Source of the DNA: a virus
Length of the DNA: 30,004 nucleotides
Strand: one strand, 5' to 3'
IMG/VR virus record: IMGVR_UViG_3300030328_000292
Location: 1-30,004 of that record
The position numbers were made by a program, and so were the translations under genes. Shown one piece after another: positions 1-4,185 of the stretch (the stretch's first letter is position 1; each line of letters begins with the position of its first letter). Under the pieces are notes generated by a model, which saw nothing but the letters and a program-made list of their open reading frames with translations, had not been told where the DNA came from and searched no databases.

Positions 1-493
1 TTGCTAATGCTGTGACAATCACGTGCATATCCAAATCTCTAATTGCCTTACAGGCTCCTAGTAATTGTTGTGCGTGATTACCCCATATAGCAAATCCGTC
101 TGGGTTTTTTTTGCCTAGCTTCTCGGCAATTTCTGTTGCCTCCTGCTCTGCGTGTTTATAAGATAGGTCTGATAACTCAGTTAAACTATCTATGCCAATC
201 CATTTGTATCCTTGTTTCTTAAAGTCCTCTGACTTTATAAACTTAAAGATAGACTTAAAGGAATAAACTCCCTTGTCTTGGTTGACTTCTCCATCCCAAC
301 TCGTGAATGGTAGGTAATCTATCTTCGCTTGTCGAATGGAACTTAATCCACTCTCACCAGATAAGATAAATCCTTTTCCATATTCCTGTTGGAAATACTT
401 TAGTTGGGTTGTTTTACCCCAACCGTGATGTCCGTATAACAAAACCTTTCTTTTAGCAGTCTCATCATCGGAAGTGTTCATAGGTTTGAACAT
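1..493 (-). CDS. RecA/Sak4-like P-loop ATPase, partial (C-terminus outside window)
   Basis: The reading frame is open from an ATG at 493 down to the window edge, giving about 164 residues without a stop. A Walker A motif GHHGWGKTT lies near residues 21-29. A Walker B-like strand with IDSLTEL lies near residues 101-107, where D102 would coordinate magnesium. This matches the phage AAA_24/Sak4 type of RecA-like ATPases, which act in single-strand annealing and recombination during phage DNA replication. AAGGAG sits 7 bases before the ATG. The start overlaps the TAA of the frame upstream (TAATG), so translation is probably coupled. Family assignment is from motifs only; a related phage P-loop ATPase is possible. 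Confidence 0.8.
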   Translation of the reverse strand, partial: MFKPMNTSDDETAKRKVLLYGHHGWGKTTQLKYFQQEYGKGFILSGESGLSSIRQAKIDYLPFTSWDGEVNQDKGVYSFKSIFKFIKSEDFKKQGYKWIGIDSLTELSDLSYKHAEQEATEIAEKLGKKNPDGFAIWGNHAQQLLGACKAIRDLDMHVIVTALA

Positions 494-660
494 TAGCTAC
501 TCCTTGTGATTTTAACAGATACAGGACCTGGCTTGATTGTCAACGCAGGTTCGACCGTGCCTTGTTCTGCTTTGGTTAGTTTTTGATAGGTACGTTTCTC
601 AACAGTTAGTCTGCGTTTAACGTGAGTTGGAAGAGGATGCTTACTAAAAATCTCCTCTAA
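493..660 (-). other. Open frame without a normal start, possible +1 frameshift extension of the nucleotidase
   Basis: In the frame +1 to the nucleotidase, an open stretch runs from just upstream of the nucleotidase stop (TAG, 646-644) to a TAA at 495-493. That TAA overlaps the start of the ATPase gene as TAATG, the same junction type used by true genes here. Past the TAG it encodes 50 residues rich in Lys and Arg. It has no ATG, GTG or TTG start near its beginning. The sequence AGAGGAGAT TTT TAG resembles the release factor 2 frameshift site: an SD-like stretch, a short spacer, a slippery codon, then a stop. Slippage on TTT T would fuse these residues to the nucleotidase. An ATT start or a miscounted T run could also explain it. 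Confidence 0.45.
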
Positions 661-1183
661 CTTTTTGTATTAATGTGATTGCTTTAGTTAGTTCATCCTC
701 TAGCTTAGTGATCTTATCTCTGTTAGCTTGCCATAGAATACCTAACCCACCTGCCTCTGTCCATCTCTTAACATTAGTGTGCTTGTCATCGACAAGGATG
801 TTAGGTGTACCATCTACTGTATGGGTAGCGTAGGTTTCTTTCTTGTGAGTGAAGACCAAGTAAGGTATCTTATCAGGCATAAGGTTATTCTTTTCTAACC
901 ACCTACGTTTCCAATAGGTACAGTTATCCCTGTCATTACGCAAAGGTGTAGAGCATATGCCCCAATCCAAATGAGGATATTTATATGTCAACTCTTTGAC
1001 ATGACCTACAAGAGGATACGTAGTGTCAAACATATCTAAGTGTCCAAAGAAACTTGTGTCTTTTAGTTGAGCAAGTGCGTCATCTATATCAGGGATATCT
1101 TTCCAATGTGTTACCTTGAATCTCTTCTCAAGTCCACCAAAGAAATCAGCTAACACACCATCCATATCTAAATATATTATCAT
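644..1183 (-). CDS. HAD-superfamily 5'(3')-deoxyribonucleotidase (NT5C type)
   Basis: The 179-residue protein starts with the HAD nucleophile motif DMDGVLAD (D6 nucleophile, D8 acid/base). It has a Ser/Thr motif II at ICSTP (residues 77-81), a Lys motif III near K114-K115 and an acidic pair VDD at 131-133 followed by a Gly-rich loop. This is the order seen in the NT5C family, which dephosphorylates deoxynucleoside monophosphates. In a phage it would tune nucleotide pools during replication. AAGGAG lies 7 bases before the ATG, inside the end of the methyltransferase gene, and the genes overlap by ATGA. Length is normal for the family. Its stop codon lies in a possible +1 frameshift context. 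Confidence 0.85.
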   Translation of the reverse strand: MIIYLDMDGVLADFFGGLEKRFKVTHWKDIPDIDDALAQLKDTSFFGHLDMFDTTYPLVGHVKELTYKYPHLDWGICSTPLRNDRDNCTYWKRRWLEKNNLMPDKIPYLVFTHKKETYATHTVDGTPNILVDDKHTNVKRWTEAGGLGILWQANRDKITKLEDELTKAITLIQKVRGDF

Positions 1184-2319
1184 CTCTTTACTCCTTTCAA
1201 TGCTTGGTATCCACAGCCACAGCCATCAAACAAACTGACAACAGTACCCAACTTATCCTGTGGTATGCCATTCAGTATGTGCTTGATCACATCTACTGTC
1301 CACCCATTACCGATCATCTTGTATCGCCTTGAATTACTTATTTCTTTCATAGGTTTAGTAAGACCATCAGCATCATGGTAGTCACCATACTTTGTGTAGT
1401 CATCAGGCATAGTCTGTAATCGTTCACACTCTTTTACTGTCAATGCTCTCCAATATAATTCATCTGTATTCACAGCAACATTATCTTTCCTTACTGTGGT
1501 AAGAGTATTAGTCTTGGTATCTTGACGCATCTCTAGTCTTTGTGTTGTAAGACCTGCCGTTTTCATCTTGTGATCTTGACGCACACCATCAACGATATAC
1601 CTACCTCGCCATGCACCACACACTACCTTCGGCATTCGCCAACCACCCTGCATGGTAGTCAAGGAAGGTGACTTGTGCTTACGATCATAGACACGCTTGA
1701 TGATATCATAACCCTTGAGATCAGCTTCACCAACCTGCCTACACTTTTGGTCATGGTTGAATACTAATTGTCTACGTGCTTTCTCAAAGTACATCTTCAT
1801 AGATCCACCCTTGAAATAGTTGGCATCAATACAGTATGCTTTCTCTCTGTCGGTCATGCTCTCATCCTCAAGGATATCCTCAAGGTTGATACCAAGATCA
1901 GGCAGATCATCATGGGGTATGTTAGTCCAATACAAACGCTTACGATTCTGTGCAGACACAGACGCAGAGTTATGTACTCTAGGTTCACAACCAAACTCAC
2001 GTGAGAATATGTCTTGATACTCCTTCTTCATAGGTGTTTCTTCCACAAGCCACCACTTAGGCTTCCACTTGTGGAACAGTTTGAAGAACTCTATCGTAGG
2101 CTTGGCTCTCTCGTCATTGAATGCAAGCTGATTACCTGCAAATGAGAACGGCTGACAAGGTACACCTGCTAGTAGCAGATCAATACCCTCTGTGTATCCT
2201 TGATACCATCTGTCTATGTCAAGTACATCACCCATCTGATATACGTCAGGGTGATTGTACTGTGACACAGCACTAGCATAGGGATCAATCTCACTTGCGA
2301 ATGCTGTTTGATATTTCAT
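1180..2319 (-). CDS. C5-cytosine DNA methyltransferase, circularly permuted
   Basis: The 379-residue enzyme transfers a methyl group from S-adenosylmethionine to cytosine C5. Motif II (ASEIDPYA) is at residues 8-15, motif IV (PCQ, catalytic C55) at 54-56, motif VI (VEET, in place of the usual ENV) at 92-95 and motif VIII (QNRKR) at 124-128. Then come a probable target recognition region, a motif IX-like LTVKECERLQ and motif X (MIGNG) at 335-339. Motif I, the AdoMet-binding loop SLFDGCGCG, is at 362-370, the extreme C-terminus, whereas in canonical enzymes it comes first. An in-frame stop shortly upstream of the ATG excludes an N-terminal copy. The gene starts in a TAATG overlap behind GAAAGGT and the repeat at 2344-2359. 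No restriction partner is visible. A role in masking phage DNA from host nucleases is inference. Confidence 0.92.
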   Translation of the reverse strand: MKYQTAFASEIDPYASAVSQYNHPDVYQMGDVLDIDRWYQGYTEGIDLLLAGVPCQPFSFAGNQLAFNDERAKPTIEFFKLFHKWKPKWWLVEETPMKKEYQDIFSREFGCEPRVHNSASVSAQNRKRLYWTNIPHDDLPDLGINLEDILEDESMTDREKAYCIDANYFKGGSMKMYFEKARRQLVFNHDQKCRQVGEADLKGYDIIKRVYDRKHKSPSLTTMQGGWRMPKVVCGAWRGRYIVDGVRQDHKMKTAGLTTQRLEMRQDTKTNTLTTVRKDNVAVNTDELYWRALTVKECERLQTMPDDYTKYGDYHDADGLTKPMKEISNSRRYKMIGNGWTVDVIKHILNGIPQDKLGTVVSLFDGCGCGYQALKGVKR

Positions 2320-2660
2320 TAGCCATTTACCTTTCTCTTAGACTGTCCGATGTCGGACACTTTATAAGTACCCTTATCAATTACGTTACCATACTTACGT
2401 ATGACAGAACCCTTATGGTTCTTCTGCAAGAATGCTACACGATACGCAACTCTCCAAAAGCTTTCATTCATTATGATAGCTATCTCTCTAATGGTATGAT
2501 CAACATAAGACTCCATTAGGATTGCGTCAATCGTAGCATAGTTATATGTAAATGGCTGTGCCTTTTTAAGGTGTGCCGTATGGTTGCTATAGTCTACGAT
2601 AGCTAACGCAGGGTTGTTCTCTTTAATTGTGTCTATATTTTTCTGTGTTGTATTTGTCAT
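2319..2660 (-). CDS. Hypothetical protein with possible helix-turn-helix
   Basis: 113 residues that I cannot assign to a named family. The central segment (about residues 50-80) combines TIREIAIIMN with FWRVAYRVAFLQ, a pattern like the second and recognition helices of small DNA-binding proteins, and the C-terminus is basic. AAGGAG precedes the ATG. The start overlaps the previous gene by ATGA and the end overlaps the methyltransferase start as TAATG, so all three are probably translated together. One copy of the 16-bp repeat lies inside its 3' end and encodes part of VSDIGQ. A regulatory role is a guess. Confidence 0.7.
   Translation of the reverse strand: MTNTTQKNIDTIKENNPALAIVDYSNHTAHLKKAQPFTYNYATIDAILMESYVDHTIREIAIIMNESFWRVAYRVAFLQKNHKGSVIRKYGNVIDKGTYKVSDIGQSKRKVNG
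2344..2359 (-). promoter_or_regulatory. Repeat site 1: TGTCCGA-N2-TCGGACA
   Basis: Perfect arms, read leftward as TGTCCGACATCGGACA. It lies inside the 3' end of the 113-residue gene, 24 bases before the methyltransferase start and ahead of GAAAGGT. This placement matches that of sites 2 and 3. Confidence 0.65.
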
Positions 2661-2914
2661 ATCAAATTCTCCTTATCATATAACTGTGCGTCTTGGGGTT
2701 GAAATATATAACCTAGATCACTAGGCTCGTCATCAATCTCGTACTCCTTTACGAAATCAAACTCTGTTTTAAGGTTAGGGTAGATTAGTTTTGCTAATTG
2801 CAACACATATTCCACTGCTTCCTTCCAATCTTTTACAGGTGTAGAGTTACTGTCTACAACCACCATAGATGGTTGCTTCTCTATGGATAGACCTATCTCA
2901 TAGTACATAGCCAT
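2657..2914 (-). CDS. Small acidic hypothetical protein
   Basis: 85 residues, not recognised. An upstream in-frame TTG would add seven residues, but the ATG at 2914 has AAGGAG six bases upstream and follows directly on the TAG of the preceding gene, so I prefer it. The protein is soluble and acidic, with a hydrophobic core segment around VEYVLQLAKLIYP. It sits in a tightly packed leftward operon with four-base overlaps on its downstream side. Confidence 0.7.
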   Translation of the reverse strand: MAMYYEIGLSIEKQPSMVVVDSNSTPVKDWKEAVEYVLQLAKLIYPNLKTEFDFVKEYEIDDEPSDLGYIFQPQDAQLYDKENLI

Positions 2915-2915
2915 G

Positions 2916-3035
2916 CTATCTCCTTCTCTTTGCAAGCGAGTCTATCTTAGCGACAAGCCAACCTGTTATGAAGCATGCATATCCAAATACACATGCACTA
3001 AAAAACCATACATAAATTTCGGGGATCTGTTCCAT
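2916..3035 (-). CDS. Single-pass membrane micro-protein (39 aa)
   Basis: ATG overlaps the TAA of the preceding gene (TAATG) and the frame ends with TAG two bases before the next gene. The 39-residue product has one hydrophobic segment (about residues 8-29, including WFFSACVFGYACFITGWLV) followed by a basic tail ending KRRR. The positive-inside rule puts its C-terminus in the cytoplasm. Function unknown. Support comes from its exact fit between neighbours and the clear membrane segment. Confidence 0.6.
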   Translation of the reverse strand: MEQIPEIYVWFFSACVFGYACFITGWLVAKIDSLAKRRR

Positions 3036-3345: not shown

Positions 3346-3451
3346 AGCTACCTTTTCCTTTCTTAGGTTTAACAGTTTGCATTGGTTTGCGTAGCATCAG
3401 CATTGCCTTTGCTACAGGATTAATTCTTGTGATTGTAAGTTTCTTTTTCAT
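3296..3451 (-). CDS. Small basic phage protein (51 aa)
   Basis: ATG overlaps the TAA of the upstream Cys-rich gene (GTAATGA). The product has the layout NPVAKAM, then a Pro-rich middle, then KKGKGSYDR. I have seen this arrangement in short unannotated phage proteins, but I cannot name a family. Positive charge and small size suggest nucleic acid contact. It overlaps the next gene by 50 bases. Confidence 0.6.
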   Translation of the reverse strand: MKKKLTITRINPVAKAMLMLRKPMQTVKPKKGKGSYDRTKEKRNALRSQEL

Positions 3452-4185
3452 TACGCTACCCACTTCTTTCCTGTGCCATGTGCAGGTATGAGTATGGACT
3501 TGGCATTGATCTTCATGCCACTACATAACTTACACTTGTCACATGTAGTACGTCTACCTGCTTCCTCACTTGCAGGACAGAGTATCTCTTTATCTTTCAC
3601 CATAGATGTAAGGTGTCCTACTCTGAAAGTACGTTCACCTTTCGACCAAGCTTCACGTGCTTCGTCTAATGTGTCGGCACTACGCATACATATAGTAGGA
3701 TCGTAGTTTGCACCATGTGTCTTGGCTTGGTGGCTGTAGGCTGTATGTGCTTTAGCACTCTTGATCCACATCTTGTTGTTCCTCTTGGGTACACAAGCAG
3801 GATCACCATACATACCTAGTCGTACAGTTCTATCCTTTGTCATATCAACAAAGTCAGCAGTTTTTATACGTGGGTATTTACCTGCCTTGTATGTTTTCCA
3901 TATGCTAAGTATGGATAGCAACATGACATAGCAACCACGTTCATCAGCCGTAGCCCGATCCTCTCTGTCATGTGCTTTACCACGTAACTTACAATCTCCA
4001 CATATAGAATAGTCTTCACCATTCTTGTTGGCAGAGATAGGATCTATATCTGTACGTATGTACAATATCTGTATCATCTTGCTAGTCTTACTGTTATTAC
4101 TGTTCATCAATGCTATTGCTACGATAGGTTTTCCATCTAGCAAACTAGCACCTTCCCATAATACGTATCCACTTGGCTTAGTCAT
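3451..4185 (-). CDS. Conserved phage protein with Cys clusters
   Basis: 244 residues. It contains a first cysteine cluster (CGDCKLRG), a CYVML segment, an RLGMYGDPA motif, a YSHQ segment near the middle, and a C-terminal cluster CPASEEAG-TTCDKCKLCSG followed by IPAHG. This arrangement matches a family of unknown function found in many phages (I believe DUF7227-like). The Cys/His layout suggests a metal or iron-sulfur site, but no reaction can be named. The ATG is preceded by GAAAGGT and by a copy of the 16-bp repeat 21 bases upstream, so it may be controlled with the methyltransferase and the 81-residue protein. Confidence 0.75.
   Translation of the reverse strand: MTKPSGYVLWEGASLLDGKPIVAIALMNSNNSKTSKMIQILYIRTDIDPISANKNGEDYSICGDCKLRGKAHDREDRATADERGCYVMLLSILSIWKTYKAGKYPRIKTADFVDMTKDRTVRLGMYGDPACVPKRNNKMWIKSAKAHTAYSHQAKTHGANYDPTICMRSADTLDEAREAWSKGERTFRVGHLTSMVKDKEILCPASEEAGRRTTCDKCKLCSGMKINAKSILIPAHGTGKKWVA

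Follow-up and report, generated by a model that had tools for sequence, protein, structure and literature searches.

A predicted C5-cytosine DNA methyltransferase naturally permuted between motifs I and II in an HMO-2011-type marine phage

The window, meaning the whole stretch of 30,004 nucleotides analysed here, is a viral fragment which encodes, from an ATG start on its minus strand, a C5-cytosine DNA methyltransferase with motifs II to X followed by motif I (Table 1). Its terminase shares 78% identity with its counterparts in Roseobacter phage CRP-1 and Puniceispirillum phage HMO-2011, which identifies the source as an HMO-2011-type marine phage. The 113-aa ORF upstream of the methyltransferase has been found, among the fetched loci, only beside the permuted gene; Roseobacter phages CRP-345 and CRP-1 contain weak matches to it. 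Related HMO-2011-type phages (CRP-603 and CRP-9) carry a canonical methyltransferase, and at several of the loci L020-L033 the canonical enzyme lies behind homologues of the window ORFs 3451-4185 and 2657-2935. Based on these shared upstream homologues, the permuted gene sits at the same local site as the canonical one. No restriction endonuclease partner was found among the window ORFs scanned, the contig being 30 kb long and related phages about 54-57 kb; since the window is a fragment, the term "solo" enzyme is valid only for the part of the genome seen.

Table 1. The permuted methyltransferase gene, its motifs and its neighbours, in window coordinates.
Feature	Position	Strand	Basis or remark
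5'(3')-deoxyribonucleotidase-like gene (phrog_2643), downstream	644..1183	-	start overlaps methyltransferase stop
Circularly permuted C5-cytosine DNA methyltransferase gene, 379 aa, order II-III-IV-VI-VIII-TRD-IX-X-I	1180..2319	-	motif order, Pfam, NCBIfam
Motif I SLFDGCGCG, residues 362-370, C-terminal	1210..1236	-	alignment, motif scan; in the model strand 359-363, turn, helix 367-376
Linker NGIPQDKLGT, residues 350-359, motif X to motif I	1243..1272	-	resembles L129-group linker FIPETYLHT
Motif X KMIGNGWTVDVIKHIL, residues 334-349 (includes GNGWTVDV)	1273..1320	-	alignment
Motif IX RALTVKECERLQ, residues 291-302	1414..1449	-	alignment
Variable / target recognition region (approximate), residues 155-287	1459..1857	-	low pLDDT; shorter in L002-L006, L034
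Motif VIII QNRKR, residues 124-128	1936..1950	-	Q124, R126, R128 invariant
Motif VI VEET, residues 92-95, ENV to EET, Glu93 retained	2035..2046	-	6/6 permuted EET vs 72/73 canonical ENV
Motif IV GVPCQPF, residues 52-58, catalytic Cys55	2146..2166	-	C55 invariant, 18 relatives
Motif II FASEIDPYA, residues 7-15, N-terminal	2275..2301	-	alignment with canonical relatives
Upstream ORF, 113 aa	2319..2660	-	stop overlaps methyltransferase start (TAATG); without motif I
92-aa ORF	2657..2935	-	homologue also precedes canonical methyltransferases (L020-L033)

A sequence-only reading of this DNA had placed motif I behind motif X and the start of the chain between motifs I and II, and both observations hold. 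Motif X precedes motif I in a single chain whose N-terminus lacks motif I, the variable region is continuous, and motif I, which reads GCGCG instead of GMSCG, is followed by nine residues and the stop codon. In a six-frame regular-expression scan, no second motif-I-like string was found on either strand of the 30-kb window, the C-terminal one being the only copy, and each of five permuted relatives has one such string, always C-terminal. The protein matches PF00145 (Pfam) with 96 bits (cut-off 22, E 3.9e-27) from profile position 22, and TIGR00675 (NCBIfam) with 106.1 bits (cut-off 100.65). That the two matches start only at profile position 21-22 fits the absence of the N-terminal motif. Residues C55, E93, Q124/R126/R128, E297 and G337 are invariant in an alignment with 18 relatives. 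The nearby in-frame stop pointed out in the sequence-only reading is located 7 codons upstream of the ATG (RTV-stop-EKGKWL-M), and in L002-L006 and L034 an in-frame stop lies 2-3 codons upstream of the start, which excludes a missed N-terminus. The proposal that joining tail to head would restore a canonical N-terminus was borne out: the rejoined spacing from FDG to the E(I/V)D of motif II is 28 in 6/6 permuted enzymes and 27 in 63/68 canonical relatives. The cut is therefore traceless save for one residue, and this extra junction residue is plausibly the new start methionine.

A wider search for the permuted order, which had been recommended as a check, returned III/IV-cut relatives, described below, and the identical arrangement in seven IMG/VR contigs (L001-L006 and L034) encoding five distinct proteins of 82-88% identity. 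The permuted gene is carried by several metagenomes, and its flanks are conserved among these loci, namely the 113-aa and 92-aa ORFs upstream and the deoxyribonucleotidase-like gene downstream. Whole-gene dN/dS values of the relatives against the window are 0.16-0.26, as expected of purifying selection; of the changes found in the 23-codon tail in these comparisons, 2-3 are synonymous and 0-2.5 non-synonymous. VEET at motif VI, which had been noticed as an oddity, turned out to be clade-specific: all permuted members have EET (6/6), canonical enzymes have ENV (72/73) and most gut III/IV permutants have ENN. The change may be a compensation for the cut or a matter of target choice. A scan of bacterial genome contigs with the window-clade alignment gave no bacterial relative of this clade, and a search of the phage collection with a 53-aa tail sequence gave no second I/II-cut enzyme among the matches listed.

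An AlphaFold2 model of the window enzyme, for which 18 natural sequences served as input, has a pTM of 0.70 and a mean pLDDT of 67. The recognition region is poorly modelled and the tail well modelled, strand 359-363 and helix 367-376 forming blocks at pLDDT 80-85. Superposition on M.HhaI, also advised at the outset, was obtained by sequential structure alignment, in which model residues 1..356 run along 31..323 of M.HhaI (Z 17.0, 252 residues, 3.3 A). Similarly, residues 1..356 run along 36..392 of M.MpeI (Z 16.8) and residues 1..357 along 651..906 of Dnmt3a (Z 19.5). As modelled, the structural register of residues 1-356 is canonical. Residue 1 falls on residue 31 of M.HhaI, before which motif I of that enzyme is located, and the window chain thus starts just where motif I ended. 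The C-terminal motif I would pack beside motif II in the usual site, since the strand residues must pair with another strand and the sheet of this family has one vacancy. For a model of the sister-topology enzyme L129 (IV-X-I-III), plant DRM is the best match, with a Z of 18.0 for model residues 42..400, and this match runs in sequence through motif X into motifs I-III. As DRM is itself permuted, a motif I placed after motif X may, by analogy, fold into the usual site. The window model itself has no DRM among its 50 listed structural matches, which has no bearing either way. Collectively, these data support a genuine I/II permutation that is conserved and makes structural sense.

Permuted C5 enzymes are known, as the sequence-only reading had stated with M.BssHII as its example, and they also include plant DRM and active laboratory I/II permutants of M.MpeI and M.SssI. 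In 2018, 21 permutants of these two enzymes, covering ten permuted topologies, were built (PMC5944983). Among them, cp35M.MpeI and cp33M.SssI share with the window enzyme a cut located between the end of motif I and the start of motif II, and they protect their plasmids, i.e. they are active; in extracts, all the laboratory permutants except cp62M.MpeI were much weaker than wild type (PMC5944983). In the structure alignment, residue 1 of the window enzyme aligns with residue 36 of M.MpeI and 31 of M.HhaI, and the cp35 cut is matched within a residue. In the A-J series of topologies of PMC5944983, cp35 and cp33 appear to be "type A", a type which the window enzyme would fit. While these two enzymes are engineered, CG-specific and bacterial, the window enzyme is natural.

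The natural permutants described so far are cut elsewhere. The REBASE survey in the same study lists 27 natural permuted prokaryotic C5 enzymes, all of them cut in the variable region (PMC5944983). M.BssHII, M.Alw26I, M2.Eco31I, M.Esp3I and the other REBASE permutants are natural and have motif X before motif I, as has the window enzyme. However, in the M.BssHII type (types H/J) the cut in the variable region places IX-X before I-VIII, whereas the window enzyme is cut between I and II with its variable region unbroken and thus stands outside this type. Plant DRM2/DRM, a natural permutant of order VI-X then I-V with the cut between V and VI (PMC2965745), likewise has motif I after motif X. Unlike the window enzyme, in which motifs II, IV and VI precede X, it is eukaryotic and carries UBA domains, and the window enzyme is not a member of the DRM family. 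Canonical phage C5 methyltransferases (phrog_116, phrog_363; CRP-603, CRP-9; Vibrio phage ICP1) share family and motifs with the window enzyme but have motif I at the N-terminus instead of the C-terminus. Phage and Clostridia enzymes of order IV-X-I-III (phrog_17284; nd4 WRQ08028.1; the L129 group) also have motif I after motif X, and the L129 group has linker and tail in common with the window enzyme, but they are cut between III and IV. No report of a natural I/II or III/IV permutant was found in a literature search of partial coverage, in which REBASE was represented by its 2018 survey. Because the 2018 survey holds variable-region cuts only and DRM is cut between V and VI, the I/II-cut window enzyme represents a natural permutation topology that is new for an otherwise known kind of enzyme. 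To the earlier judgement that a solo phage enzyme cut between I and II is unusual, it should be added that related phage enzymes show several natural permutations, among which this cut does not stand alone.

The reading that we favour, with a probability of about 0.85, is that the window gene, from an HMO-2011-type marine podovirus, encodes a C5-cytosine DNA methyltransferase which is circularly permuted by nature and predicted to work. As far as sequence comparison goes, motif order, conservation, selection and spacing are established, as is a topology that makes the enzyme a new natural variant; its chemistry is most likely that of an ordinary C5 methyltransferase. In the proposed mechanism, the C-terminal strand-loop-helix (residues 359-376) would return as beta1/helix A beside motif II and complete the AdoMet pocket. 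Cys55, Glu93 and QNRKR would then methylate cytosine in a target selected by the variable region. The predicted role is methylation of phage DNA, most likely guarding against host restriction. Such a gene may have arisen by an in-frame tandem duplication, which fused the motif I of the second copy behind motif X, followed by a new start after the motif I of the first copy and loss of the remainder. A direct-repeat search around the window gene revealed no duplication scar.

Further permuted enzymes were found with a query made of the X-linker-I tail, followed by a two-segment HMM classification. The order IV-X-I-III was obtained in about 37 viral contigs and, among bacterial genomes, at 33 loci, most of which belong to Oscillospiraceae and other Clostridia. 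L129-L133, L210 and L211 are close to the window family, about 30 further viral contigs belong mostly to one clade, and phage nd4 (OR777945.1) has the order too, as do two phage records from human faeces. The III/IV-cut loci comprise L129-L133, L210, L211, L213-L227, L288-L313, L201 and L205, with L366-L398 as the bacterial ones, and two-frame (broken) genes of this order are present in L158, L204, L212, L222 and L297. III/IV-cut C5 methyltransferases are widespread among contigs of gut phages and genomes of Clostridia and seem to be undescribed. In these proteins, as in the window enzyme, the permutation goes unseen because profile libraries file them as ordinary methylases or as "unknown function", the label of PHROG 17284, to which the nd4 and L372 proteins have their best PHROG match. 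The gut-type permutant of Oscillibacter sp. 1-3 (L377:2337-3803) has GGSPY instead of GGSPC at motif IV and for this reason is probably inactive. L011, L012, L018 and L020-L026 are canonical enzymes with an unusual N-terminal motif I (VVSLCGGTDSAYLSC) and a low score with the motif I-III profile. An apparent crossing from motif X to motif I in phage T2S2 (H10), Psychrobacillus phage Perkons (H47) and Bacteroides phage BT638P8 (H78) was rejected, as translation gave canonical or separate genes.

Several loci contain duplicated copies. In the tandem array L135:2245-6150, a single 568-aa frame holds a fusion of two complete methyltransferases, with further copies after it, and other tandem arrays are found in L134, L154, L170, L176 and L202. 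L131:2076-3380 has a separate I-III ORF followed by a IV-X-I-III ORF, the two being tied by a direct repeat of 281 nt whose copies match at 88% and lie 1,018 bases apart, and by this layout looks like a permutation intermediate; L135, L131 and the tandem arrays are presumed to be such intermediates. At L129, a 73-nt direct repeat (1923-1995 and 3373-3445; 75%, 1,450 bases apart) in Cys-rich coding sequence flanks the permuted gene and is possibly a duplication scar. Taken together, the permuted, fused and partial-duplicate forms suggest repeated permutation by duplication and truncation.

It is possible, though we lean against it, that a single fused ancestor gave rise to both the window clade and the L129 group, which acquired different start points later. 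Linker and tail of the two groups are very alike (IPxxxLxTVVSLFDG), and a joint clade was compatible with a quick 83-row analysis (p-AU 0.74). In contrast, a careful 35-row tree of the IV-X part, in which the window clade is monophyletic (100/100) and adjoins canonical L013/L015 (89/96), rejects the grouping of the window clade with the L129 group (p-AU 0.0019), of the window clade with the gut group (p 0.0004) and of L129 with the gut group (p 0.0015). Both trees could be misled by recombination of the variable region. Separate origins of the two groups are thus proposed with some caution in view of the common linker, and the number of origins is likely, not firm, given the conflict between the trees. 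On balance, phage C5 methyltransferases are probably a hot spot in which natural circular permutation has recurred, driven by tandem duplication and truncation. At least three separate events would have given two topologies that the 2018 REBASE survey lacks, namely the I/II cut of marine HMO-2011-type phages and the III/IV cut, which would have arisen once in gut phages and Clostridia and a second time in the L129 group. Fused (L135) and partial-duplicate (L131) forms persist.

For the window gene itself, we regard as improbable that it is truncated and inactive, its C-terminal motif I being a remnant and EET the mark of lost function or of non-catalytic DNA binding. While the change from ENV to EET is present in all clade members, and the gut-type permutant L377 has its catalytic Cys changed (GGSPY), all clade members keep Cys55, Glu93 and motifs VIII-X intact and without variation, and the gene is under purifying selection and present in several metagenomes. 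Still less credible is a split enzyme, which would take motif I from another polypeptide as in the two-chain M.AquI, the C-terminal copy being incidental. Two-chain C5 enzymes do exist (cited in PMC5944983), and L131 has a separate I-III ORF beside its permuted ORF. However, a separate motif-I polypeptide, a possibility already raised in the sequence-only reading, was sought without success in the window: neither there nor in the five permuted relatives is there another motif-I-like string, and the upstream 113-aa ORF has none. Since all its motifs lie in one ORF, the window enzyme is not M.AquI-like, and its tail motif I is conserved and under constraint. As for an artefact, such as a gene read over a misjoined contig, the window is a single metagenomic contig and such errors happen, but the same join and flanks in seven independent contigs (82-88% protein identity), together with purifying selection, rule out an assembly error, barring one and the same error in all of them.

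It has been suggested that a cut near the AdoMet motifs (in that case II/III) may be disfavoured by weaker AdoMet binding (PMC5944983). A natural I/II-cut enzyme and a large natural III/IV-cut group indicate that evolution uses cuts near the AdoMet site, and these permutants provide enzymes for testing the 2018 idea. The I/II shuffle, earlier built in the laboratory and functional, is here natural, in a marine virus of bacteria. With tandem, fused and partial-duplicate forms in one family, the permutation-by-duplication model becomes examinable in nature. Finally, in Pseudoflavonifractor sp. 524-17 (L372:2241-4346), a IV-X-I-III methyltransferase is fused to a Mom-like / XF1762-family domain (phrog_1384, E 2.8e-42; NF045478, 216 bits), and this protein, judged from its domains, possibly combines two DNA modifications.
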